Positions 9,231 to 22,380 of a stretch of DNA of 64,000 nucleotides are shown piece by piece (positions within the stretch are counted from its first letter, which is position 1; the number at the start of each line of letters is the position of its first letter). Position numbers and translations under genes: made by a program. Origin of the DNA: Pseudomonas resinovorans NBRC 106553 (GTDB lineage Bacteria > Pseudomonadota > Gammaproteobacteria > Pseudomonadales > Pseudomonadaceae); assembly GCF_000412695.1 (NCBI RefSeq), contig NC_021499.1, positions 1,054,001 to 1,118,000 of the forward strand. The letters are read 5' to 3'. The notes beneath the pieces were generated by a model that was not told where the DNA came from, ran no database searches, and saw only the letters and a list, made by a program, of their open reading frames with translations.

Positions 9231-10202
9231 TCAGCCGTTGATGTCCTCGACGTTGTGGCAGGCCACCTGGCGCGCGTCGAGCAGCCGCAGTTCCGGTACT
9301 TCCACCTTGCAGCGCTCGGTGGCGTAGGGGCAGCGCTTGTGGAAGGCGCAGCCGGACGGCGGGTTGAGCGGGTTGGGCAGTTCGCCGGCGATCTTGATCT
9401 TCGGCTTGGCCGGGTCCGGGTGGATGGCCGGCGTGGCGGAGAGCAGGGCCCTGGTGTAGGGGTGCAGCGGACGCTCGTAGATCAGCGCGCTGGGGCCCAT
9501 CTCCACCGGGCGACCGAGATACATCACCAGCACGTCGTTGGCGACGTGGCGCACCACCGCGAGGTTGTGGGAGATGAACACGTAGCCGGTGTTGTAGCGC
9601 TCCTGCAGATCCATGAAGAGGTTGAGCACCTGGGCCTGGATCGACACGTCCAGGGCCGAGGTCGGCTCGTCCGCCACCAGCACCTTGGGGTTGAGCATCA
9701 TGGCGCGGGCCAGGGCGATGCGCTGGCGCTGGCCGCCGGAGAACATGTGCGGGTAGCGCTGGAAGTGCTCGGGGCGCAGGCCCACCTGCTGCATCATCGC
9801 CTGTACCTGCTCGCGCCGCTCGACGCGGGACAGCCCGGTGTTGATCGACAGCGGCTCGGCCAGTTGGTCACCCACCTTCTGCCGCGGGTTGAGGGAGGCG
9901 TAGGGGTTCTGGAAGACCATCTGCACGTCGCGGCGCAGCTGCCGGCGGTCTTCCTTGCTGGCGCCCGCCACTTCGCGGCCGGCGATCTGCAGGGAACCGG
10001 AGGAGGGCTCCTCGATCAGGGTCAGGGCGCGGGCGAGGGTGGACTTGCCGCAGCCGGACTCGCCGACCACGGCCAGGGTGCGACCGGCCTCCAGCTCGAA
10101 GGACACGCCGTTGAGGGCGCGCACCAGGGCGTGGGGCTTGAACAGGCCGCGGGATACCTCGTAGTGGCGGGTCAGCTCGCGAGCGGTCAATACGGCACTC
10201 AT
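9231..10202 (-). CDS. dppF: Dipeptide ABC transporter ATP-binding protein DppF
   Basis: Cytoplasmic ATPase subunit (323 residues) energising di-/tripeptide import. Walker [10 protein letters not shown] near residue 50, signature [15 protein letters not shown], Walker [14 protein letters not shown], and an H-loop in [10 protein letters not shown]. The C-terminal oligopeptide/dipeptide extension has the cysteine cluster ([15 protein letters not shown]) seen in DppF/OppF. Last gene of the leftward dpp operon; its start overlaps the dppD stop by four bases. Confidence 0.93.
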
Positions 10203-11173
10203 CGCGCCACCTCGATCAGGTTAAGGGGGTAGAAGCAGCGCACGGCGCCATGGGCGTGGGCATCCAGGGTCGGACGCTGGGCCACGCAGTTGGGCTGGCC
10301 ATAGGGGCAGCGTGGCGACAGCAGGCAGCCATGGGGCCGGTCGTAGCGACCGGGGACTATGCCCGGCAGGGTCGCCAGGCGACGGGCGCCCAGGCTGTGC
10401 TCGGGAATCGCCTTGATCAGGGCTTCGGTATAGGGATGGGTGGGGGAGTCGAACAGGCGCGGCACTTCGCCGATTTCCACGGCCTGGCCGGCATACATCA
10501 CGCAGACCCGGTCGGCGGTCTCGGCGACCACCGCGAGGTCGTGGGTGATCAGCACCAGGCCCATGCCCTGGTCGCGCTGCAGGTCCAGCAGCAGGTCCAT
10601 GATCTGCGCCTGGATGGTGACGTCCAGGGCGGTGGTGGGCTCGTCGGCGATCAGCAGCTTGGGCTCGGCGGCAATCGCCATGGCAATGGCCACGCGTTGG
10701 CTCATGCCGCCGGAGAGTTGGTGCGGGTAGGCATCGAGGCGGCTGGCGGCGCCGGGGATCTCCACCCGTTCCAGCAGCTCGAGCGCACGCTGGCGGGCGG
10801 CCTTGCCCTTGAGGCCCATGTGCTGGTGCAGCACTTCCTCGATCTGGAAGCCCACGGTGTAGCTGGGGTTGAGCGCGGTCATCGGGTCCTGGAAGACCAT
10901 CGCCAGGTCCTTGCCGACGATGTGGCGACGCTGCTTGCCCTTGAGGGTGAGCATGTCGTGGCCGTCGAAGCGCAGGCTGTCGGCGGTGACCCGGCCGGGC
11001 GCATCGATCAGGCCCATCAGGGCCATCATGGTCACCGACTTGCCGGAGCCGGACTCGCCGACTATGGCCAGCACTTCACCCTTGTTCACGCTGATGTCGA
11101 GGCCGTCCACCACCGGGACGGCATCGGCGTCGCCGAAGCGCACGGACAGGTTTTTGATGTCGAGGAGGCTCAT
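10199..11173 (-). CDS. dppD: Dipeptide ABC transporter ATP-binding protein DppD
   Basis: Second ATPase subunit, 324 residues. Walker [10 protein letters not shown] near residue 40, signature [16 protein letters not shown], Walker [14 protein letters not shown], and the C-terminal oligopeptide-transporter motif with [14 protein letters not shown]. It pairs with DppF as a heterodimer. Between it and dppC lies a 108-bp gap carrying a palindromic repeat. Confidence 0.93.
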
Positions 11174-11222
11174 ACTGCGGTCTCCGGGCGGTACGCGATG
11201 TTCGGGGTGCTCGACCGGACGT

Positions 11223-11254
11223 GATGGGTATCGCTGCGCTCAACCCATCCTACG
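11223..11254. repeat. GATGGGT...ACCCATCCTACG repeat inside dpp operon
   Basis: Short copy of the repeat family also seen at 17453-17499 and 26544-26630: GATGGGTATCGCT, then CAACCCATCCTACG. The GATGGGT and ACCCATC arms can pair. It sits in the dppC-dppD gap, so a stem-loop would form within the operon message. Confidence 0.75.
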
Positions 11255-11281
11255 AAGATGATTTGATTCATGGCGGGCTCC

Positions 11282-12193
11282 TCAGACGGCATTCTTGAGT
11301 TTCGGGTCCAGCGCGTCGCGCAGGCCGTCGCCCATCAGGTTGATCGCCAGCACACTGAGCAGGATGGTCAGGCCGGGCAGCGAGACCACCCACCAGGCGC
11401 GTTCGATGTAGTCGCGCGCGGAGGCCAGCATGGTGCCCCACTCGGGGGTCGGCGGTTGTACGCCGAGGCCGAGGAAGCCCAGGGCGGCGGCGTCGAGGAT
11501 GGCCGAGGAGAAGCTCAGGGTGGCCTGGACGATCAGCGGCGCCATGCAGTTGGGCAGCACGGTGACGAACATCAGGCGCAGCAGGCCGGCGCCGGCCAGG
11601 CGCGAGGCGGTGACGTAGTCGCGGTTCAGCTCGCCCATCACCGAGGCGCGGGTCAGACGCACATAGGAGGGCAGCGAGACGATGGCGATGGCGATCACGG
11701 TGTTGATCAGGCCCGGGCCGAGGATGGCGACGATGGCCACCGCCAGCAGCAGGGAGGGCAGGGCCAGCATGATGTCCATCAGGCGCATGATCGAGGGGCC
11801 CAGCAGGCGCGGGAAGAAGCCCGCCACCAGGCCGAGGAGGATGCCGGGAATCAGCGACATCACCACCGACGCCAGGCCGATCATCAGGGACAGCCGGGCG
11901 CCGAAGATCAGCCGTGAAAGCAGGTCGCGGCCCAGTTCGTCGGTGCCGAGCAGGAACTGCGCCTGGCCGCCTTCCAGCCACACCGGCGGGGTCAGCAGGA
12001 AGTCGCGGAACTGCTCGCTCGGGTCATGGGGCGCGACCCAGGGAGCGAAGAGCGCGCAGATCACGATCAGGATCATGAAGGCGAGGCCGCCGACGGCGCC
12101 CTTGTTGTGGGCGAAGGCCTTCCAGAACTCCTTCAGCGGCGAAGGGTAGAGGATGCTCGGGTCAGTGGCCGGGATATTTGAAACCGTGTTCAT
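11282..12193 (-). CDS. dppC: Dipeptide ABC transporter permease DppC
   Basis: Inner-membrane permease, 303 residues. An N-terminal cytoplasmic tail precedes a first helix (GGLAFMILIVICALFAPWV), a periplasmic loop (LLGTDELGRDLLSRLIFG) and the BPD-transporter inner-membrane domain with five further helices. The ATPase-docking EAA motif is degenerate around ASRLAGAGLLRLMFVTVLPN. Length and the GTDELGRD motif are typical of DppC/OppC. It is 30 bp downstream of dppB. Confidence 0.93.
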   Translation of the reverse strand: MNTVSNIPATDPSILYPSPLKEFWKAFAHNKGAVGGLAFMILIVICALFAPWVAPHDPSEQFRDFLLTPPVWLEGGQAQFLLGTDELGRDLLSRLIFGARLSLMIGLASVVMSLIPGILLGLVAGFFPRLLGPSIMRLMDIMLALPSLLLAVAIVAILGPGLINTVIAIAIVSLPSYVRLTRASVMGELNRDYVTASRLAGAGLLRLMFVTVLPNCMAPLIVQATLSFSSAILDAAALGFLGLGVQPPTPEWGTMLASARDYIERAWWVVSLPGLTILLSVLAINLMGDGLRDALDPKLKNAV

Positions 12194-12223
12194 CAGTTGC
12201 TCCAGGGAAACTGTCCAGGGCCA

Positions 12224-13234
<1,011 letters not shown>

Positions 13235-13424: not shown

Positions 13425-15026
13425 TCAGCGTTCGTTGGAGACACCATAGAAGCTGTTGCGGCCGAAGGGGCTGATCAGGAAGTCCTTCACGTCCTTGCGC
13501 ATCGGCTGGTAGACGGTGGAGTGGGCGATCGGGGTGATCGGCAGCTGCTCCTTCAGGCGGTGCTGGGCTTGCTTGTACAGCGCGGTACGCTGCTCCACGT
13601 CGGCGGTGGCCTTGGCCGCTTTCACCAGCTTGTCGTAGTCGGCGTCGCACCACTTGGAGAAGTTGTTGCCGTTGACCGAGTCGCAGCCGTAGAGGGTGCC
13701 GAGCCAGTTGTCCGGGTCGCCATTGTCACCGGTCCAGCCGATCAGCATGGCGTCGTGCTCGCCGTTGTGGGCGCGCTTGATGTACTCGCCCCATTCGTAG
13801 CTGACGATCCTGGCCTTGATGCCCACCTTGGCCCAGTCGGCCTGGAGCATCTCGGCCATCAGCTTGGCGTTGGGGTTGTACGGGCGCTGCACCGGCATGG
13901 CCCAGAGGGTGATCTCGGTGCCTTCCTCGATGCCGGCGGCTTTCAGCAGCGCCTTGGCCTGTTCCGGGTTGTAGCCGGCGTCCTTGATGGTCTCGTCGTA
14001 GGACCACTGGGTCGGCGGCATGCCATTCACGGCAAGCTGGCCGGCGCCCTGGTAGACGGCGCCGATGATGGCCTGCTTGTTCACCGCCATGTCCAGCGCC
14101 TGGCGCACTTCGAGCTTGTCGAAGGGGGCGCGGGTGACGTTGTAGGCGATGTAGCCGAGGTTGAAGCCGGGTTCGCTGGGCACCAGCAGGTTCGGGTCCT
14201 TCTTCAGCGACTCGATATCCGCCGGGCGCGGGTTGAGGGTGACCTGGCACTCGCCGGCCTTGAGCTTCTGCGCGCGTACCGAGGCATCGGTGTTGATGGC
14301 GAAGATCAGGTTGTCGATCTTCACGTCCTCGGGTTTCCAGTAGTCCTTGTTGCCGGTGAAGCGGATCTGCGCGTCCTTCTGGTAGCGCTTGAGCACGAAG
14401 GGGCCGGTGCCGACGGGTTTCTGGTTGATCTGGGCGGCCTTGCCGGCCTTGAGCAACTGGTCGGCGTACTCGGCGGACTGGATGGCGGCGAAGTTCATCG
14501 ACAGGTTCTGGATGAAGGCGGCGTCCACCTCGTTGAGGGTGAAGGCCACGGTCATCTCGTCGACCTTCTCCACCTTGGCGATGTTCTTGTCCAGGCCCAT
14601 GTCGGTGAAGTAGGGGAACTCGGTGGGGTACGCCTTGCGGAAGGGGTGGTCCTTGTCGAGCATGCGCTGGAAGGTGAAGAGCACGTCGTCGGCGTTGAAC
14701 GCGCGGGTCGGCTTGAAGTAGTCGGTGCTGTGGAACTTCACGCCGGGGCGCAGATGGAAGACGTAGCGCTTGCCGTCTTCGCCGATATCCCAGCTGCTGG
14801 CCAGGGCCGGCTCGACCTGGGTGCTGCCGCGCTGGAACTGGGCGAGGCGGTTGAAGAGGGTTTCGGAGGTCGCGTCGAAGTCGGTGCCGGTGGTGTATTG
14901 GCCCGGATCGAAGCCGGCGGGGCTGCCTTCGGAGCAGAACACCAGGTTGCTGGCGGCGTGGGAGAGGCCGGAGCCGAGAATCAGGCTGGCGGCGAGCATG
15001 GACTTGAAGGTGGATTTCTGACGCAT
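13425..15026 (-). CDS. dppA: Dipeptide ABC transporter periplasmic binding protein (DppA paralogue a)
   Basis: Solute-binding protein family 5, 533 residues, capturing peptides in the periplasm for DppBCDF. The frame is open upstream, but the ATG at 15026 begins a clean Sec signal peptide (MRQKSTFKSMLAASLILGSG, cleavage after SHA) and has GAGGT upstream, so it is chosen. Seen motifs: LVFCSEGSPAGFDPGQYTTG, FNADDVLFTFQRMLD, and GWTGDNGDPDNWLGTLYGCD. It is the binding protein next to dppBCDF, the position of dppA4 in PAO1. Protein and DNA are strikingly similar to the paralogue at 20779-22380. Candidate PsdR operators lie upstream at 15226-15274. Confidence 0.92.
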   Translation of the reverse strand: MRQKSTFKSMLAASLILGSGLSHAASNLVFCSEGSPAGFDPGQYTTGTDFDATSETLFNRLAQFQRGSTQVEPALASSWDIGEDGKRYVFHLRPGVKFHSTDYFKPTRAFNADDVLFTFQRMLDKDHPFRKAYPTEFPYFTDMGLDKNIAKVEKVDEMTVAFTLNEVDAAFIQNLSMNFAAIQSAEYADQLLKAGKAAQINQKPVGTGPFVLKRYQKDAQIRFTGNKDYWKPEDVKIDNLIFAINTDASVRAQKLKAGECQVTLNPRPADIESLKKDPNLLVPSEPGFNLGYIAYNVTRAPFDKLEVRQALDMAVNKQAIIGAVYQGAGQLAVNGMPPTQWSYDETIKDAGYNPEQAKALLKAAGIEEGTEITLWAMPVQRPYNPNAKLMAEMLQADWAKVGIKARIVSYEWGEYIKRAHNGEHDAMLIGWTGDNGDPDNWLGTLYGCDSVNGNNFSKWCDADYDKLVKAAKATADVEQRTALYKQAQHRLKEQLPITPIAHSTVYQPMRKDVKDFLISPFGRNSFYGVSNER

Positions 15027-15223: not shown

Positions 15224-15274
15224 AACTTAAGTGATGCTGAAATTAAGGTCAACTTAAATTCAGTGAGGCTTACT
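15224..15274 (-). promoter_or_regulatory. dppA(a) promoter with tandem candidate PsdR operators
   Basis: On the minus strand TTGACC (15247-15252) and TAAGTT (15224-15229) are 17 bp apart, a plausible sigma-70 promoter 198 bp before dppA. Site 1, TTAAGTGATGCTGAAA (15227-15242), matches the mdpA operator in 14 of 16 positions. Site 2 (15243-15258, TTAAG-N5-CTTAAA) keeps both arms and overlaps the -35. A degenerate third copy (15259-15274) follows. The centres are 16 bp apart. Assignment to PsdR is inference from its presence at three peptide-uptake promoters. Confidence 0.65.
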
Positions 15275-15290
15275 TGAGAAAAACTGGAGT

Positions 15291-15854
15291 TCAGGCGCTG
15301 GGATGGTCGTCGAACAGGCCCATGGTGGTGACGGTCAGCACCTCGGCGATTTCGTCGCCGGCGTTGGCGAGAAAGTGCGGCTTGGCGGCGTCGAAATGCA
15401 CCGAATCCCCGGCACCCAGCGGGTAGTTGCGGCCTTCGATGGTGTAGACGATCTGCCCAGAGAGCACATAGGCGAACTCGGTGCCTTCGTGGGAGATGAG
15501 TTCGGACTGGTAGCCCACCGGCATGCTCATCTTCACGGCGTTGATCAGGTTGCCGGGGAAGTTGCTGGTCAGGCGCTCGTAGGCCAGCGGCTGGCCGCCA
15601 ATGGTGTAGCGCACGCGCTGGCCCTGGTGGGAATCGGGCTGGTGCTGCATGGGCTGGTCGAACAGGGTGTTGAGCGGAATTCCCAGGGATTTGGCGATGT
15701 TCGCCAGGGATGAAATGGACACGCCGGTGAGGTTGCGCTCTGCCTGGGACAGGAAGCTGGCCGTCAGGCCCGATTCGGCGGCTACCTGGTTCAGGGTCTT
15801 GTTGGCGGCGCGGCGATAGCGGCGCAAGCGTTCCCCGATGCGATCTACGGTCAT
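15291..15854 (-). CDS. psdR: XRE-cupin transcriptional regulator PsdR
   Basis: 187-residue regulator. The N-terminal XRE helix-turn-helix (about 8-62: LNQVAAESGLTASFLSQAER) is joined to a C-terminal cupin domain (about 105-180: SHEGTEFAYVLSGQIVYTIE, GDSVHFDAAKPHFLANAGDE) that probably binds the effector. In P. aeruginosa PsdR represses the dpp genes and the dipeptidase gene mdpA; here it lies between dppA and mdpA, the latter divergent, which supports the name. Start MTVDRIGERLRRYR is the only sensible ATG. A minus-strand TATACT at 15883-15888 is its likely -10; a degenerate operator-like site at 15930-15947 would allow autoregulation. Confidence 0.85.
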   Translation of the reverse strand: MTVDRIGERLRRYRRAANKTLNQVAAESGLTASFLSQAERNLTGVSISSLANIAKSLGIPLNTLFDQPMQHQPDSHQGQRVRYTIGGQPLAYERLTSNFPGNLINAVKMSMPVGYQSELISHEGTEFAYVLSGQIVYTIEGRNYPLGAGDSVHFDAAKPHFLANAGDEIAEVLTVTTMGLFDDHPSA

Positions 15855-15927
15855 TGGCGTGGCTCGTGTTCTGAAGGGCGCCAGTATAGCCGGCGGCGCA
15901 TCTTAGAAAAGGCTTGTCGCATTAATG

Positions 15928-15982
15928 AAATTAAGTAGAACTGAAATTTCGCATTGACGGTTATTTAAGTGGTGCTTAAATT
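15928..15982 (+). promoter_or_regulatory. mdpA promoter with candidate PsdR operator
   Basis: TTGACG (15954-15959) and TAAATT (15977-15982) are separated by 17 bp. A perfect 7-bp inverted repeat, ATTTAAG-TGGTG-CTTAAAT (15963-15969 and 15975-15981), fills the spacer and covers the -10, a classic repressor position. A weaker copy, TTAAGTAGAACTGAAA (15931-15946), lies upstream on the psdR side. The same motif recurs before dppA(a) and opdP. Confidence 0.7.
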
Positions 15983-16014
15983 CTGTCGACTGCAACAGGA
16001 TTCGGGAGAACGAC

Positions 16015-17232
16015 ATGACAGTGGGTGTAGGTGGCAAGACTCCGCAACAGGCGCTGGGCGGCCTGACCAACATGACCGCGAGCGTGCAGCCCATCGATCT
16101 CGCCGAGTACCAGGCGCGCATCGCCAAGGCCCAGGTGCTGATGCGTGAGCAGGGGCTCAGCGCCATCTACCTGAACGCCGGCAGCAACCTGCGCTATTTC
16201 ACCGGCGTGAAATGGAACCCCAGCGAACGCATGGTGGGGGCCGTACTGCCCGCCCATGGCGCGCTGGCCTATATCGCCCCGGCCTTCGAGGAAGGCACCA
16301 TCCGCGATTTCCGCGAGGTGGACGGCGTTATCCACACCTGGCAGGAACACGAAAACCCCTACCGCCTGCTGCTCGACATGCTGGCGGGCATGGGCCTGGC
16401 CGCCGACGCGGTGGTGGGGCTGTGCCCGTCCCTCGCCTTCTTCATGTTCGATGGCATTCGCCGCCTGGGGGCGGGCTTCGATTTCGTCGATGCCGCCTGT
16501 GTGATCAACCCCTGCCGCTACCACAAGTCCGCCACCGAGCTGGCGCTGATGCAGCGCGCCAAGGACATGACCCTGGAAGTGCACAAGGCCGCCGCCAGCA
16601 TCCTCCGTGCGGGCATCAGCACCCTCGAGGTGGCCGAGTTCATCCGCGAGGCGCACCGCAAGGTGGGCGCGCCGGGCTCGACCTTCTGCATCGTGCTGTT
16701 CGGCGAGGCCAGTGCCTTCCCCCATGGGGTCAAGCACGCGCAAGTGCTCAAGGACGGCGACATGGTGCTGATCGACACCGGCTGCCAGCTCCATGGCTAC
16801 CAGGCGGACATCACCCGCAGCTATGTGTTCGGCACCCCCAGCGAGCGCCAGCGCGCGCTGTGGAACCTGGAGAAGGCCGCCCAGCAGGCCGCCTTCGACG
16901 CAGCCAACCTGGGCGCGCCCTGCGGCTCGGTGGACGCCGCCGCCCGCCGCTGCCTGGAGGCCGCAGGCCTGGGGCCGGATTACCAACTGCCCGGCCTGCC
17001 CCACCGTACCGGCCACGGTATCGGCCTGGACGTCCATGAAGGGCCCTATCTGGTCCGTGGTGACGAGACGCCGTTGGCCGAGGGCATGTGCTTCTCCAAC
17101 GAGCCGATGATCTGCGTGCCGGGGGAGTTCGGAATCCGCCTGGAGGATCACTTCTACATGACGGCCAACGGCCCGCGCTGGTTTACCCAGCCGAGCCATT
17201 CCATCGACGACCCGTTCGGGTTGGAAGCCTGA
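16015..17232 (+). CDS. mdpA: M24 family metallo-dipeptidase MdpA
   Basis: Cytoplasmic pita-bread-fold metallopeptidase (Xaa-Pro aminopeptidase-like), 405 residues, probably cleaving imported dipeptides. An N-terminal creatinase-type domain (about 25-165, YLNAGSNLRYFTGVKW) precedes the catalytic M24 domain. The expected metal ligands are visible: Asp in LIDTGCQLHG, Asp in QADITRSYVF, His in HRTGHGIGLDVHEGP, Glu in CFSNEPMI, and Glu in GIRLEDHFYM. The ATG at 16015 has GGGAG at good spacing; an internal ATG at 16072 is a possible shorter start. It is divergent from psdR with shared candidate operators. The name rests on family plus synteny with P. aeruginosa psdR-mdpA. Confidence 0.83.
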   Translation: MTVGVGGKTPQQALGGLTNMTASVQPIDLAEYQARIAKAQVLMREQGLSAIYLNAGSNLRYFTGVKWNPSERMVGAVLPAHGALAYIAPAFEEGTIRDFREVDGVIHTWQEHENPYRLLLDMLAGMGLAADAVVGLCPSLAFFMFDGIRRLGAGFDFVDAACVINPCRYHKSATELALMQRAKDMTLEVHKAAASILRAGISTLEVAEFIREAHRKVGAPGSTFCIVLFGEASAFPHGVKHAQVLKDGDMVLIDTGCQLHGYQADITRSYVFGTPSERQRALWNLEKAAQQAAFDAANLGAPCGSVDAAARRCLEAAGLGPDYQLPGLPHRTGHGIGLDVHEGPYLVRGDETPLAEGMCFSNEPMICVPGEFGIRLEDHFYMTANGPRWFTQPSHSIDDPFGLEA

Positions 17233-17253
17233 CGCGGTTGGTTGGTGGGGCCT

Positions 17254-17287
17254 CCCTCTCCCTCTGGGAGAGGGTCGGGGTGAGGGG
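17254..17287. repeat. CT-rich intergenic repeat (CCCTCTCCCTCTGGGAGAGGG)
   Basis: A CCTCTCCC / GGGAGAGG hairpin followed by TCGGGGTGAGGGG. This is the recognisable form of a repeat common between pseudomonad genes; a degraded relative is at 5002-5039. It begins 21 bases after mdpA and may act as its terminator. Confidence 0.7.
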
Positions 17288-17293
17288 CGGTTA

Positions 17294-17354
17294 GGGCTTG
17301 CCCCGGGGCGACCGGCAGGCCTGCGGCCTGCTTGGCGAATGAATTCGCCCCTAC
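17294..17354. repeat. GGCGAATGAATTCGCCCCTAC repeat (partial)
   Basis: The right-hand 30 bases (17325-17354) are identical to 25461-25490. It contains the palindrome GGCGAATGAATTCGCC. Only one half of the longer near-palindromic element at 25395-25490 is present. Confidence 0.75.
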
Positions 17355-17394
17355 ACCATGAGCGCGACCCGCCACGTTCTACGGCAGTTCGTAG

Positions 17395-17446
17395 ATCCGG
17401 ATGAAATCCGGGAGCGGCGGTGGGTTTTTCCCGGATTGCATCCGGG
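17395..17446. repeat. CCGGATGAAATCCGGG / CCCGGATTGCATCCGGG repeat
   Basis: Two small palindromes, the second being CCCGGATTGCATCCGGG (17430-17446), flank a GC-rich spacer. Such CCCGGATT..CATCCGGG strings recur between genes of pseudomonads. It sits between two other repeat families. Confidence 0.5.
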
Positions 17447-17452
17447 CCTGCT

Positions 17453-17499
17453 GATGGGTTTCGCTCCGCTCGCGGAACGCCGCCCGACCCATCCTGCGG
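17453..17499. repeat. GATGGGT...ACCCATCCTGCGG repeat
   Basis: Second copy of the family at 11223-11254 and 26544-26630. It shares TCGCTCCGCT and GGAACGCCGCCCGACCCATCCT with the longer copy at 26581-26628. Confidence 0.8.
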
Positions 17500-17506
17500 G
17501 CTACCT

Positions 17507-17520
17507 GAGCTCGCTCCTAC
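17507..17520. repeat. Right end of GTAGGAGCGAG-type repeat overlapping a stop codon
   Basis: GAGCTCGCTCCTAC is identical to the right arm of the element at 9200-9213. It overlaps the end of the leftward gene at 17517, whose TAG stop is read from the CTA inside the repeat. Confidence 0.7.
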
Positions 17521-19115
17521 GGGACGACTTTCACCCTGGCGAAGTTGTTCGAGCCCAGGGGATTGAGCTGGAAGCCCTGCACGCCCTTGCGCAGGGCGGC
17601 GAACTGCCTGGGGTGGGCCAGGGGAATCCACGGCGCCTGTTCGTGGAAGATCGCCAGGGCCTGGCGATAGAGCTCGGCGCGCTTGGCGGGCTCGGTGATG
17701 GCGCGGGCCTGGCGGATCAGTTCGTCGAATTCCCCGTTGCACCAGCCGGCCTGGTTCTCGCCCGACTCGGCCGCCGCGCAGGACAGGTTGGGGGTGAGGA
17801 AGTTGTCCGGGTCGCCGTTGTCGCCCGCCCAGCCCATGAACACCAGGTCGTGCTCGCCGTTCTTGGCACGCTTGATCAGCTCGCCCCACTCGAAGACGCG
17901 AATCTCCGCCTTGACGCCGATGGCCGCCAGGTCCGCCTGGAGCATCTGCGCGCCGATTCCCGGGTTGGGGTTGGCCGGGCCGCCGCCGGGGCGGGTCCAG
18001 ATGCTCAGCTTGAAGCCATCCTTGTGGCCGGCCTCGGCCAGTAGCTGGCGGGCCTTTGCCGGATCATGGGGCCAGGGGTCGAGCTTGTCGTTGAAGCCCA
18101 GCAAGGTGGCCGGGTAGGGCGCCACGGCGAGGCTGGCGTTGCCCTCGCCGAACTGTGCGCGCAGGTAGGCGCGGGTGTCGAAGGCGAGGTTGATGGCCTG
18201 GCGCACCCGCACGTCGTCCAGCGGCGGGCGACGGGTGTTGATACCGACGTAGGCGGTGAGCAGGGAATCCAGCTCGAGGATATCCAGCGCCGGGTCCTGG
18301 CGCAGGCCGGCGATGTCGGCGGGGCGCGGGTAGACGGCGATCTGGCAGGCGCCGGCCTTGAGTTGCTGCACCCGCACATTGGGATCGGGGGTGATGGCGA
18401 ACAGCAGTTTCTCCACCGCAGGCTTGCCGGCCCAGTAGGTGGGGTTGGCGCGGAAGCGTACCTGGGCATCCTTGCTGTAGCGCTCGAAGACGAAGGGGCC
18501 GGTGCCCACCGGCTGCCGGTTCAGTTGCTCGGCCTTGCCGGCCTTGAGCAATTGCTCGGCGTACTCGGCCGAATAGATCGAGGTGAAGCCCATGGCCAGG
18601 TCGGCGAGGAAGGGCGCTTCGGGGTGTTTCAGGGTGAAGCGCACGCGGTGCTCGTCGAGCTTCTCGATGCTCTGGATCAGTTCGGCGAAGACCATGGATT
18701 CGGCATAGGGGAAACCACGCGGAGACAGCTTGTGCCAGGGATGCCGTGGGTCCAGCTGGCGCTGGAAGGTCCAGAGCACATCATCGGCGTTGAACGGGCG
18801 GCTGGGGCTGAACCAGGGGGTGCTGTGGAATTGCACCCCCTGGCGCAGCTGGAACTCGTAGACCAGGCCGTCGGGGCTGATGCTCCAGCTTTCCGCCAGG
18901 CCCGGCTGCAGGCGAGTGGTGCCGGGGACGAACTGCACCAGGCGGTCGAAGAGGGTTTCGGCCGACGCATCGGCGGTGGTGGCCGCGGTGTACTGGACGA
19001 TATCGAATCCTTCCGGGCTGGCCTCGGTGCAGACCACCAGGGTCGCGGCCTGGGCGGCCCAGCTGAAACAGCCCAGGGCCAGCGCCAACGGGAGGGTTCG
19101 AAGCGTCTTCAACAT
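17517..19115 (-). CDS. dppA: Peptide ABC transporter periplasmic binding protein (DppA paralogue b)
   Basis: Family 5 solute-binding protein, 532 residues, divergent from the other two dppA copies here (for example TLVVCTEASPEGFDIVQYTA against NLVFCSEGSPAGFDPGQYTT), suggesting a different peptide preference. The signal peptide is clear (MLKTLRTLPLALALGCFSWA, cleavage after AQA). Family motifs PFNADDVLWTFQRQLD and MGWAGDNGDPDNF are present. It starts 37 bp after opdP and is probably co-transcribed with it from the operator-bearing promoter at 20617. The last codons and TAG stop lie in a repeat. Confidence 0.88.
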   Translation of the reverse strand: MLKTLRTLPLALALGCFSWAAQAATLVVCTEASPEGFDIVQYTAATTADASAETLFDRLVQFVPGTTRLQPGLAESWSISPDGLVYEFQLRQGVQFHSTPWFSPSRPFNADDVLWTFQRQLDPRHPWHKLSPRGFPYAESMVFAELIQSIEKLDEHRVRFTLKHPEAPFLADLAMGFTSIYSAEYAEQLLKAGKAEQLNRQPVGTGPFVFERYSKDAQVRFRANPTYWAGKPAVEKLLFAITPDPNVRVQQLKAGACQIAVYPRPADIAGLRQDPALDILELDSLLTAYVGINTRRPPLDDVRVRQAINLAFDTRAYLRAQFGEGNASLAVAPYPATLLGFNDKLDPWPHDPAKARQLLAEAGHKDGFKLSIWTRPGGGPANPNPGIGAQMLQADLAAIGVKAEIRVFEWGELIKRAKNGEHDLVFMGWAGDNGDPDNFLTPNLSCAAAESGENQAGWCNGEFDELIRQARAITEPAKRAELYRQALAIFHEQAPWIPLAHPRQFAALRKGVQGFQLNPLGSNNFARVKVVP

Positions 19116-19152
19116 CGCGTGACTCCTGGGCGCCGACCGATTTGGATGAACT

Positions 19153-20520
19153 CTACAGGAGGTTGAAGGGGAAGGTGCTGACGATGCGCAGTTCGTTGGT
19201 GCTGCCGTCTACCTGCTGCTTGCTAGCCTTGTGTTCCATATAGAGGACCCGGACGGTGCTGCCTTCCAGGTTGCCGCCGGGAACCTTGTAGTTGAGCGAC
19301 AGGCCGTACTCCCGGTGACGCTCCCCGTCCATGGCGCGCACTTCGGCGTAGTTGCCATAGGCGCCGTTGCGATCGCCGCGGTAGCGGGTGCCGTCGATGC
19401 CCCAACCCTTGACGTACCAGTAGCCGGTGCTGACGCCGGGCACGCCGTACTGGCTCCAGTCGAAGTCATAGCTGAACAGCGCGGATCTTTCGTTCGGGCC
19501 GTTGTAGTCCGAGTAGCGGGAGTTGCCCAGGTGGATGGCATCGGTTTCGTTGACGTAGTCGAAGAACTCGTCGCCATGCACCCGTTGCCAGCCCAGGGTC
19601 AGGCTGTGGGCGCGGTGGGTCAGGTTGAACGCCAGGCTCCAGGAGTCGTTGTCGATGTAGCCGGCCTTGCGCGCACCCTGGTCGCGGGTCGAGTAGGCCC
19701 GCAGCTCGGTACGCAGGGCGAGCTCCTCGGGGTCGCCCAGTTCATGGGTGGCGCCGAGGAAGTGCTGGTTCCACACGTCCTCGAAACGGGCGCTGAACAG
19801 GCTCAGCTCCAATCCCTCGACCGGCGTGTGACGGGCGCCGACGTAGCTCATGCGATCGCTGCGTACCTCGCGGGTCCCGTATTCGGTGGTGAAGTCCTCG
19901 CTGCCGGCGCGGCTACGCGGGCTGACCTGGCGGAAGCTGCCGGCGTGCAGGCTGAGGCTGTCGAGCTCGAAGCTGTCGAGCGCCACGCCGTCGAAGCTGG
20001 AGGGCAGGGCGCGGTTGTAGATGTAGGAGAACACCGGTGTGTCCACTCGGAAGCGACCGGCCTTGAGCTCGCTGCGCGAGGCTCGCAGGCGCAGGTTGGC
20101 GACCCCCATCTTCGACCACTCCGCCACGCCATGGCCGTTGCTGTCGGCCAGGGTGCGATTGCCGCCGCCGGCGATGCGCCCCTTGCCCCGCTCCAGGTTC
20201 ACGGCGCCGATGGCTTCCAGGTCCAGGCCGACGCCGACCGTGCCCTCGGTGTAGCCCGAGTTGTAGATGAGCCGGGTGCCTTGCACCCAGGTCCAGCGGT
20301 CCCGCGTGGGTTCGCCGCCGTCATCCTTGGGGATGGTGAAACTGAAGCTGTCCTGGGTGCGCTCGTGGGAGAAGAAGTTGCGGGTGACCAGGTCGACCTT
20401 CTGGCCCTCGACGAAGCCCCTGGCGGTGGATTGGTCTATTGCCTGCTCGGCCGCCAGGGTGGCGTTGGCGGTCAGCAAGGCCAGACCCAGCAGAGTTCCG
20501 TTGCGGGTAATCAGGTTCAT
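19153..20520 (-). CDS. opdP: OprD-family outer-membrane porin OpdP
   Basis: Outer-membrane specificity porin of 455 residues for small peptides. The ATG at 20520 starts a signal peptide (MNLITRNGTLLGLALLTANA, cleavage after TLA); the longer upstream frame is rejected. Typical OprD features: ARGFVEGQKVDLVTRNFF at the mature N-terminus, WVQGTRLIYNSGYTEGTVGVG, LRASRSELKAGR, and the C-terminal LNYKVPGGNLEGSTVRVLYM. Its position among dpp genes matches the glycine-glutamate/dipeptide porin OpdP of P. aeruginosa; family plus context give the name. A near-perfect copy of the candidate PsdR operator lies about 100 bp upstream. Confidence 0.85.
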   Translation of the reverse strand: MNLITRNGTLLGLALLTANATLAAEQAIDQSTARGFVEGQKVDLVTRNFFSHERTQDSFSFTIPKDDGGEPTRDRWTWVQGTRLIYNSGYTEGTVGVGLDLEAIGAVNLERGKGRIAGGGNRTLADSNGHGVAEWSKMGVANLRLRASRSELKAGRFRVDTPVFSYIYNRALPSSFDGVALDSFELDSLSLHAGSFRQVSPRSRAGSEDFTTEYGTREVRSDRMSYVGARHTPVEGLELSLFSARFEDVWNQHFLGATHELGDPEELALRTELRAYSTRDQGARKAGYIDNDSWSLAFNLTHRAHSLTLGWQRVHGDEFFDYVNETDAIHLGNSRYSDYNGPNERSALFSYDFDWSQYGVPGVSTGYWYVKGWGIDGTRYRGDRNGAYGNYAEVRAMDGERHREYGLSLNYKVPGGNLEGSTVRVLYMEHKASKQQVDGSTNELRIVSTFPFNLL

Positions 20521-20613
20521 GGGATGCGTTCCTCTTGTTGTTGTGTTTATGCGGGCGCGCCGAGACTCCCCGGGCCCCGTGGGCATGGCGGGATGCCGTT
20601 TGAACCCGACTGG

Positions 20614-20642
20614 AAATTAAGTGCTGCTTAAACTGGCAACAA
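20614..20642 (-). promoter_or_regulatory. opdP promoter with candidate PsdR operator
   Basis: TTAAGTGCTGCTTAAA (20617-20632) differs from the mdpA site by one base and is a perfect TTAAG-N6-CTTAA inverted repeat. On the minus strand it lies between a possible -35 (TTGTTG, 20637-20642) and a weak -10 (TAATTT, 20614-20619). The site is about 97 bp before the opdP ATG. The promoter boxes are weak; the inverted repeat is clear. Confidence 0.65.
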
Positions 20643-20740: not shown

Positions 20741-20768
20741 AAAACGGGGCCCGAAGGCCCCGTTTTTT
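20741..20768. terminator. Bidirectional rho-independent terminator after dppA(c)
   Basis: AAAACGGGGCC / GGCCCCGTTTTTT stem, with A and T tracts on both sides, lies 11 bases beyond the stop of the leftward dppA at 20779. Reading leftward, the stem is followed by TTTTGTTTTCC. Confidence 0.88.
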
Positions 20769-20778
20769 CAGGCGCGGC

Positions 20779-22380
20779 TTACTTGCCTACGCCCACTCCG
20801 TAGAAGGAGTTGAGCGCGAACGGGCTGATCTTGAAGTCCTGCACGTTCTTGCGCATCGGCTGGTAGACCGTGGAGTGGGCGATCGGGGTGATCGGCACCT
20901 GGTCCTTGAGGATGTGCTGGGCCTGTTTGTACATCTCGGTACGCTGGGCCTGGTCCGGGGTCGCCTTGGCCTGCTTGATCAGCTTGTCGTAGCCGGCGTC
21001 GCACCACTTGGAGAAGTTGTTGCCGTCCACGGCGTCGCAGCCGTAGAGGGTGCCCAGCCAGTTGTCCGGGTCACCGTTGTCGCCGCTCCAGCCGATCAGC
21101 ATGGCGTCGTGCTCACCGCCCTTGGCGCGCTTGATGTATTCGCCCCACTCGTAGCTGACGATCTTGGCCTTGATGCCCACCTTGGCCCAGTCGGCCTGGA
21201 GCATTTCGGCCATCAGCTTGGCGTTGGGGTTGTACGGGCGCTGCACCGGCATGGCCCAGAGGGTGATCTCGGTGCCTTCCTTGACGCCGGCGGCCTTGAG
21301 CAGTTCCTTGGCCTGTTCCGGGTTGTAGCCGGCATCCTTGATGCTCTCGTCGTAGGACCACTGGGTCGGCGGCATGCCGTTCACGGCCAGTTGGCCGGCG
21401 CCCTGGTAGACGGCGTCGATGATGGCTTTCTTGTTCACCGCCATGTCCAGCGCCTGGCGCACTTCGAGCTTGTCGAAGGGCTTGTGGGTGACGTTGTAGG
21501 CGATGTAGCCGAGGTTGAAGCCCGGCTGCGACGGCATGTTCAGGTTCGGGTCCTTCTTCAGCGCGTCCAGGTCGGCCGGACGGGGGAAGAGGGTGACCTG
21601 GCATTCGCCGGCCTTGAGCTTCTGCATGCGCACGGAGGCGTCGGTGTTGATGGCGAAGATCAGGTTGTCGATCTTCACGTCACCGGGCTGCCAGTAGTCC
21701 TTGTTGCCGGCGAAGCGGATCTGCGCGTCCTTCTGGTAGCGCTTGAAGACGAAGGGACCGGTGCCGATGGGCTTCTGGTTGATGTCGGCGGCCTTGCCGG
21801 CCTTGAGCAACTGGTCGGCGTATTCGGCGGACTGGATGGAGGCGAAGCTCATGGCCAGGTTCTGGATGAAGGCCGCATCCACGCCGTTGAGGGTGAACTT
21901 GACGGTGCGGTCGTCGACCTTCTCCACCTTGGCGATGTTGGCGTCCATGCCCATGTCGGTGAAGTAGGGGAATTCGGTGGGGTACGCCTTGCGGAAGGGA
22001 TGGTCCTTGTCGAGCATGCGCTGGAAGGTGAAGAGCACGTCGTCGGCGTTGAACTCGCGGGTCGGCTTGAAGTAGTCGGTGGTGTGGAACTTCACCCCGG
22101 GGCGCAGGTGGAAGGTGTAGATGAGGCCGTCGGGGGACACGTCCCATTTTTCGGCCAGGCCTGGAATCACCGCGGTGCCGCCACGCTCGAACTGGGTCAG
22201 GCGGTTGAACACGGTTTCGGCGGCGGCATCGAAGTCGGTGCCGGTGGTGTATTGGCCCGGATCGAAACCGGCGGGGCTGCCTTCGGAGCAGAACACCAGA
22301 TTGCTTGCGGCGCTGGCGAAGGGCGCGCTGGCGATCAGCCCAGCGGCGACAAGTGCCTGGATGACGGCGTTTTTACGCAT
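20779..22380 (-). CDS. dppA: Dipeptide ABC transporter periplasmic binding protein (DppA paralogue c)
   Basis: Family 5 solute-binding protein, 533 residues, the same length as paralogue a (13425-15026) and highly similar throughout, differing mainly in the signal peptide, residues 50-80 and the extreme C-terminus. The signal peptide is MRKNAVIQALVAAGLIASAP with cleavage after ASA. It has its own terminator, and no TTAAG-type operator is seen upstream, so it may be expressed independently of the other dpp genes. In PAO1 several dppA copies flank mdpA; exact orthology cannot be decided by eye. Confidence 0.9.
   Translation of the reverse strand: MRKNAVIQALVAAGLIASAPFASAASNLVFCSEGSPAGFDPGQYTTGTDFDAAAETVFNRLTQFERGGTAVIPGLAEKWDVSPDGLIYTFHLRPGVKFHTTDYFKPTREFNADDVLFTFQRMLDKDHPFRKAYPTEFPYFTDMGMDANIAKVEKVDDRTVKFTLNGVDAAFIQNLAMSFASIQSAEYADQLLKAGKAADINQKPIGTGPFVFKRYQKDAQIRFAGNKDYWQPGDVKIDNLIFAINTDASVRMQKLKAGECQVTLFPRPADLDALKKDPNLNMPSQPGFNLGYIAYNVTHKPFDKLEVRQALDMAVNKKAIIDAVYQGAGQLAVNGMPPTQWSYDESIKDAGYNPEQAKELLKAAGVKEGTEITLWAMPVQRPYNPNAKLMAEMLQADWAKVGIKAKIVSYEWGEYIKRAKGGEHDAMLIGWSGDNGDPDNWLGTLYGCDAVDGNNFSKWCDAGYDKLIKQAKATPDQAQRTEMYKQAQHILKDQVPITPIAHSTVYQPMRKNVQDFKISPFALNSFYGVGVGK

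Follow-up and report, generated by a model that had tools for sequence, protein, structure and literature searches.

Which promoters of the peptide-uptake locus of Pseudomonas resinovorans NBRC 106553 carry an operator for the repressor PsdR, and how is the protein placed upon them? The locus lies within the window analyzed here, a stretch of 64,000 nucleotides (C1:1054001-1118000) of the 6.48-Mb genome. PsdR is an XRE-cupin repressor thought to sense dipeptides. Much is already known from P. aeruginosa PAO1, and we cite two papers for those of their passages that concern PsdR. DNA affinity purification sequencing (DAP-seq), RNA sequencing, reverse transcription quantitative PCR and electrophoretic mobility shift assay (EMSA) yielded a palindromic motif and showed PsdR to control mdpA and dppA3 directly, through two binding sites only, both beside psdR (Trouillon 2021, PMC7901475). 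The palindrome is spelled TTAAGxxxxxCTTAA at both promoters (Qiu 2024, PMC10965056). A preliminary description of the window tentatively attributed a shared inverted repeat at three promoters to PsdR. It correctly held that PsdR represses dpp and mdpA in P. aeruginosa, where the published action at mdpA and dppA3 is direct (PMC7901475), but named no described operator; both papers describe one. What we propose from the sequence is a modest extension of this system, namely opdP as a further target and the arrangement of operators in phased arrays.

The palindrome most likely marks the position of PsdR on the peptide-uptake promoters. We think it highly probable, taking the reading as a whole, that the repeats are PsdR operators, that each palindrome would take one dimer and block its promoter, that dimers would lie side by side in arrays, and that release by dipeptide would turn on import and cleavage together. 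The arrays, the promoter register and the opdP site are directly visible in the window. Occupancy of all the slots, cooperativity, repression of opdP and ligand release in this species we infer.

We score each site by its matches out of 10 to the core TTAAG-N5-CTTAA. The three repeats first noted, one each at dppA, mdpA and opdP, have the sequences and positions originally given, and such repeats exceed chance. With up to 3 mismatches TTAAGTGNTGCTKAAA has 4 matches in the window against 0.42 expected, and ATTTAAGN5CTTAAAT has 5 against 0.07; at least 4 and at least 5 matches, respectively, were reached in 0 of 100 shuffles. One site per promoter was nevertheless an undercount, since the middle and upstream slots at dppA and operator 2 at mdpA (Table 1) had been missed. 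The dppA promoter has a row of three sites, each exactly 16 bp from the next, with cores at 15227, 15243 and 15259 scoring 9, 10 and 8/10, and relatives L109-L113 and L117 have an 8/10 site at the same step as the weak third slot. Read on the dppA strand the middle operator is TTAAG-TTGAC-CTTAA, so that the first five bases of the -35 element TTGACC make up its spacer. The mdpA-psdR intergenic region contains two sites 34 bp apart, with cores at 15931 (9/10) and 15965 (10/10). The 16-base consensus proposed earlier is over-specified, as the five central bases of the palindrome differ between species.

How do these sites stand with respect to the promoters? On the target strands of mdpA, dppA and opdP alike, the -35 element starts 11 nt before the palindrome, the spacer is 17 bp and the last half-site provides the TAA of the -10 element. 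The mdpA site had been placed between the -35 and -10 elements; in fact most of the 17-bp spacer, together with all but one of the six -10 bases, falls within it. A consensus promoter scan recognized the mdpA promoter only (1 found against 0.6 expected by shuffling). Thus the earlier statement that all sites overlap plausible promoter boxes holds by scan for mdpA, while for dppA and opdP the overlap is given by register. In this placement, bound PsdR would be expected to block RNA polymerase.

The bare palindrome, by contrast with this promoter-register form, occurs elsewhere too, and shows no genome-wide enrichment. When at most one mismatch is allowed, it is found at 21 places in the 6.48 Mb, against 42 for a reversed control, and in the PA7 genome at 23 places against 35. 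Exact copies occur at five places in the genome, three of them inside the window. The operator meaning therefore comes from clustering and promoter register, and we rejected the bare palindrome as a genome-wide predictor, it being no commoner than the reversed control when one mismatch is allowed.

Table 1. Candidate operators, promoters and genes of the peptide-uptake locus, in window coordinates; core scores are out of 10.
Feature	Position	Strand	Remarks
dppA operator slot over -10	15225-15243		9/10 core
dppA middle operator slot	15241-15259		10/10 core
dppA upstream slot	15259-15273		weak 8/10 core, 16 bp further on
mdpA operator 1	15963-15981		10/10 core; overlaps promoter spacer and -10
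mdpA/psdR operator 2	15929-15947		9/10 core; 34 bp from operator 1
opdP operator	20615-20633		10/10 core at 20617; single
mdpA promoter TTGACG-17-TAAATT	15954-15982	+	consensus scan; boxes TTGACG 15954-15959, TAAATT 15977-15982
dppA promoter TTGACC-17-TAAGTT	15224-15252	-	read by eye; shared register
opdP promoter TTGTTG-17-TAATTT	20614-20642	-	shared register with mdpA and dppA
Terminator-like hairpin	20741-20766	-	11 pairs then TTTT; 3' of upstream dppA
psdR	15291-15854	-	XRE-type helix-turn-helix + cupin repressor, 187 aa
mdpA	16015-17232	+	M24 family metallopeptidase, divergent from psdR; Pfam Peptidase_M24 and Creatinase_N
dppA (dppA3-like)	13425-15026	-	dipeptide-binding protein ahead of dppBCDF; NCBIfam DppA best match, below curated cut-off
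dppBCDF transporter genes	9231-13234	-	NCBIfam best matches DppB and dipeptide ABC ATPase (dppB, dppD), both below cut-offs
opdP	19153-20520	-	OprD-family outer-membrane porin; Pfam OprD E 9.9e-114; name from position and similarity
Second dppA-type binding-protein gene	17517-19115	-	37 bp past opdP (open reading frame spacing); NCBIfam DppA best match, below cut-off
Upstream dppA	20779-22380	-	precedes opdP

Is the arrangement kept in other species? Our sample comprised 80 named psdR loci together with the window; tblastn matches with less than 50% query coverage (40% in a later fetch) were dropped, as were loci where neither mdpA nor a dpp gene was adjacent. We could delimit an mdpA-psdR intergenic region in 69 cases (68 loci plus the window) and a stretch from psdR to dpp in 73 (72 loci plus the window), from which dereplication removed 3 and 9 to leave 66 and 64. 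The best mdpA-psdR site scores 10/10 in 53 of the 66, 9/10 in 9 and 8/10 in 4, and the best psdR-dppA site scores 10/10 in 12 of the 64 and 9/10 in 52. Markov-randomized psdR-flanking intergenic sequences reach 10/10 in 0.03% of cases and 9/10 in about 0.7%, and the other dpp genes of the same loci have no upstream site better than 8/10. The promoter register is kept as well. The looser composite TTG-N8-TTHAG-N5-CTKAA is found on the target strand in 71 of the 73 dppA regions and in 43 of the 69 mdpA regions, and never on the opposite strand. Beside this, some loci of P. protegens, P. chlororaphis and similar species (L031, L033-L039, L050 and L078) have no mdpA next to psdR, and keep a 9/10 site past psdR (near 10620-10655), some 600-720 bp ahead of the dpp gene that follows.

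Over all 81 loci, here not dereplicated, we collected pairs of sites lying within 120 bp of each other, both with at most two mismatches and one with at most one. The spacings are 16 bp (35 pairs), 17 bp (8), 32 bp (64), 33 bp (34) and 34 bp (20), with 11, 22, 35, 49 and 64 bp seen once or twice. We defined the register as 16, 17 and 32-35 bp, and sought a second site of at least 8/10 lying 15-70 bp from the best. Such a site is present in register in 53/69 mdpA and 71/73 dppA promoters, and in none is there a second site solely out of register; a second site of any spacing within the same limits occurs in about 3-5% of randomized sequences. As a matter of arithmetic rather than of any binding result, 32-34 bp corresponds to about three helical turns and 16-17 bp to about one and a half.

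Could these additional sites be something other than operators? It may be that the promoter-proximal palindrome alone is functional, and that the others are look-alikes in an AT-rich promoter flank, as part of an UP-like element or the context of the -35. The -35 flank of dppA is conserved and could persist as promoter sequence, opdP has a single site, and 16 of the 69 mdpA promoters, chiefly those of Stutzerimonas and P. nitroreducens/citronellolis loci, lack a second site. Yet 43 of the 66 dereplicated mdpA regions have a site of at least 9/10 at +33 (25) or +34 (18), no locus has its second site out of register only, and in Pseudogulbenkiania (L079) two 9/10 sites stand 34 bp apart, with a weaker one between them by eye, before a different gene, that of a 618-aa M24 peptidase standing in for mdpA. 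We consider this explanation unlikely, if the strongest of the rivals considered here. Sites outside Pseudomonas score lower against the TTAAG-N5-CTTAA consensus. In the Lysobacterales, where C.TAA often replaces CTTAA, 8/10 sites lie 17 bp apart in L085-L087 and 34 bp apart in L081, and 9/10 sites lie 33 bp apart in L084; L083 has a single 9/10 site, followed in score by one of 7/10. In an alphaproteobacterial metagenome-assembled genome (L082) a pair of 9/10 sites is spaced by 17 bp.

The site before opdP appears to be the new element of the locus. A terminator-like hairpin separates opdP from the upstream dppA, and opdP therefore probably needs a promoter of its own, which the sequence at 20614-20642 would fit. 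As a class such hairpins are not above chance in the window (5 found, 4.2 expected); a similar one is read in alignment at the same place in G006, a genome of another species of the genus. G006 has the same gene order, with an opdP 65-66% identical to that of the window. Its site has a 10/10 core and lies 153 bp past the stop codon of the upstream dppA, compared with 155 in the window, and the -35, 17-bp spacing and palindrome of its promoter TTGCCC-17-TAACTT align with those of the window. The distance to opdP, 398 bp, is different because the leader is about 300 bp longer. We also fetched 20 loci that covered opdP orthologues as well as less closely related porins. Apart from the window, G006 alone among them has a site scoring 9/10 or more; three of the distant porin loci have an 8/10 match somewhere in the locus.

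A chance palindrome on an unrelated promoter might look the same, and the bare palindrome is, as stated, not enriched in the genome. In a survey of 31 opdP genes from the window and the 80 named loci, taking 300 bp upstream and dropping genes with less than 150 bp, all but that of the window have at most 7/10. However, a 10/10 core appears in only 0.03% of the randomized psdR-flanking intergenics (a set other than the opdP intergenic), the -35/-10 register is the same as at mdpA and dppA, and a second species has the site at the same distance from the upstream dppA, so that coincidence appears improbable. Conservation upstream of orthologous genes, on which the preliminary description had staked its reading, is thus found for mdpA and dppA, while for opdP, among the genes checked, sites of at least 9/10 are confined to the window and G006. 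A P. resinovorans locus (L011) has no more than 7/10 ahead of its opdP-like gene, and in PA7 opdP occupies another place in the locus and has no upstream match better than 6/10. In a relative (L098, G004:C11:135150-135887) the opdP-like frame has stop codons and looks decayed. We suggest that opdP and the dppA-type gene following it, which form a probable operon, have joined the PsdR regulon in this lineage. If so, entry through the outer membrane would be under the same switch as import and cleavage, and the locus would offer a simple test case of a local regulon gaining a gene.

Does the promoter-register form go with psdR itself? We surveyed 148 genomes of the family, calling psdR at E<=1e-40 and mdpA at E<=1e-60. 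The psdR gene was called in 38, and mdpA in 37, all of them psdR-positive; at this threshold the 110 psdR-negative genomes yield no mdpA match. The strict composite TTG-N8-TTHAG-N5-CTTAAWTT is found at 36 places in 28 of the 38 psdR-positive genomes and in 0 of the 110 others (Fisher p about 4e-22, uncorrected for relatedness), and the reversed control has one match. Comparison of the listings by eye places 35 of the 36 next to psdR, the one exception being the window's opdP promoter. Four fetched psdR genomes without the strict composite (L118, L120, L186 and L187) still have palindromes at the same loci. Together with the identity of the published palindrome, this upholds the assignment of the motif to PsdR, and the earlier proposal to scan pseudomonads for motif and psdR is borne out for the promoter-register form. 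That a different XRE-cupin or peptide-responsive regulator binds the sites is very improbable despite the shared fold of related regulators, since the published PsdR consensus is identical (PMC10965056), the strict composite keeps, in the 148 genomes surveyed, to psdR-positive ones and nearly always to the neighbourhood of psdR, and the motifs of ErfA and PauR are said to differ in PMC7901475.

Several matches were set aside. The exact sites at C1:338302 and 2903157 of the window genome are not among the strict-composite matches. Nor is a 9/10 site at C1:5920574-5920588 (L004 near 1502), which we did not count as a target; it is in the gap before a short open reading frame that, by eye, is lipoprotein-like. 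A wider family pattern survey was discarded, because AT-rich genera gave as many control matches among the matches listed.

A number of observations weigh against the proposal as a whole. The dppA and opdP promoters, with weaker boxes for which the shared register is the basis, were not recognized by the consensus scan, and the looser composite reaches only the 43 of 69 mdpA promoters given above. The strict composite is missing from 10 of the 38 psdR-positive genomes and is present in only 2 of the 25 genomes of the genus of PA7. The spacing register was chosen after the histogram had been seen, and the loci are related by descent. A second site is absent from 2 of the 73 dppA promoters, besides the 16 of mdpA. 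At opdP there is one site and no array, and control of opdP is not general, because DAP-seq in PAO1 gives two PsdR sites only (PMC7901475) and 30 of the 31 opdP genes score at most 7/10.

How might the system operate? One PsdR dimer would bind each TTWAG-N5-CTTAA palindrome. Where additional palindromes are spaced by 16-17 bp or about double, as at dppA and mdpA, several dimers could sit side by side or on one face of the DNA, and multiple dimers would make repression tighter or steeper. Binding of a dipeptide in the cupin domain would cause PsdR to leave the DNA, so that import (by porin, binding proteins and DppBCDF) and cleavage (by MdpA) come on together. In P. aeruginosa mdpA is induced by dipeptides, while release by ligand is put forward there as a hypothesis (PMC7901475).

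The array also offers another reading of published binding data. The shift at mdpA has two bands, interpreted in print as monomer then dimer, and mutation of half the palindrome left a faster band, interpreted as monomer (PMC7901475). Alternatively the faster band of the mutant could be a dimer on a second palindrome, because at mdpA of PA7 there is a pair of palindromes with a spacing of 34 bp, and the regions targeted by EMSA measured 83-96 bp (PMC7901475). On balance we lean towards a repressor that works as an array, in which PsdR dimers would occupy successive 16-17 bp slots, one operator at some dppA promoters would have the -35 hexamer as its spacer, the layout would be kept from Pseudomonas to the Lysobacterales and Neisseriales, and the two bands at mdpA would be one and then two dimers on paired palindromes. 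If this is right, a steep, cooperative induction is to be expected. Mutants of psdR emerge in evolution experiments on quorum sensing in P. aeruginosa, and so the peptide sensing of PsdR and its grip on DNA matter for interpreting them. The subject is touched on in a passage of PMC12021273.

The window system matches that of PAO1 in its orthologous regulator, its palindrome, the two psdR-flanking promoters and the placement of the site on the core promoter. It differs in that opdP has its own site and in the phased arrays that we describe for the operators, where the passages cited for PAO1 describe one palindrome per promoter. The main text of PMC7901475 contains none of the words opdP, PA4501, tandem and cooperativ, and PMC10965056 contains neither opdP nor PA4501. 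The latter paper was the sole match in a literature search for spellings of the palindrome, and among the matches listed no title or abstract start dealt with opdP control or PsdR arrays, which does not establish their absence from print. Of known relatives PauR, PuuR and ErfA share the helix-turn-helix plus cupin layout and repression, and PauR and ErfA have palindromic motifs, with a consensus stated to differ from that of PsdR (PMC7901475). The NCBIfam PuuR model matches the window PsdR well below its cut-off.

The window PsdR has the Pfam domains HTH_3 (residues 10-62) and Cupin_2 (residues 109-175), both above cut-off, in agreement with its first description as an XRE-cupin protein, and is 87% identical to the PA7 protein; its identity to the proteins of Pseudomonas sp. 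BN102 and P. resinovorans is 96% and 94%. A PDB sequence search returned helix-turn-helix relatives and cupin relatives separately, and nothing else. The gene stands between mdpA and a dpp binding-protein gene, and the order mdpA-psdR-dppA is also that of PA7, as for a P. aeruginosa-type orthologue. The full order on the minus strand is the upstream dppA, opdP, the second dppA-type gene, mdpA (itself on the plus strand), psdR, the dppA3-like gene and dppBCDF, of which dppC and dppF are named from gene order alone.

Two palindromes of PA7 may be added. The first, TTAAGTGGGACTGAA at L184 1609-1623 (G143:C1:4033608-4033622), is single, lies about 195 bp before a gene that we take to be lasR, and lacks the -35/-10 register of mdpA, dppA and opdP. 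It matches the published lasR site, with the one-mismatch form TTAAGxxxxxCTGAA (PMC10965056). The second, at L173 1501-1515 (G143:C1:4281220-4281234), is a perfect TTAAG-N5-CTTAA that is not a strict-composite match. It is located between two genes, presumably aprF and aprA, about 140 bp before the protease gene.

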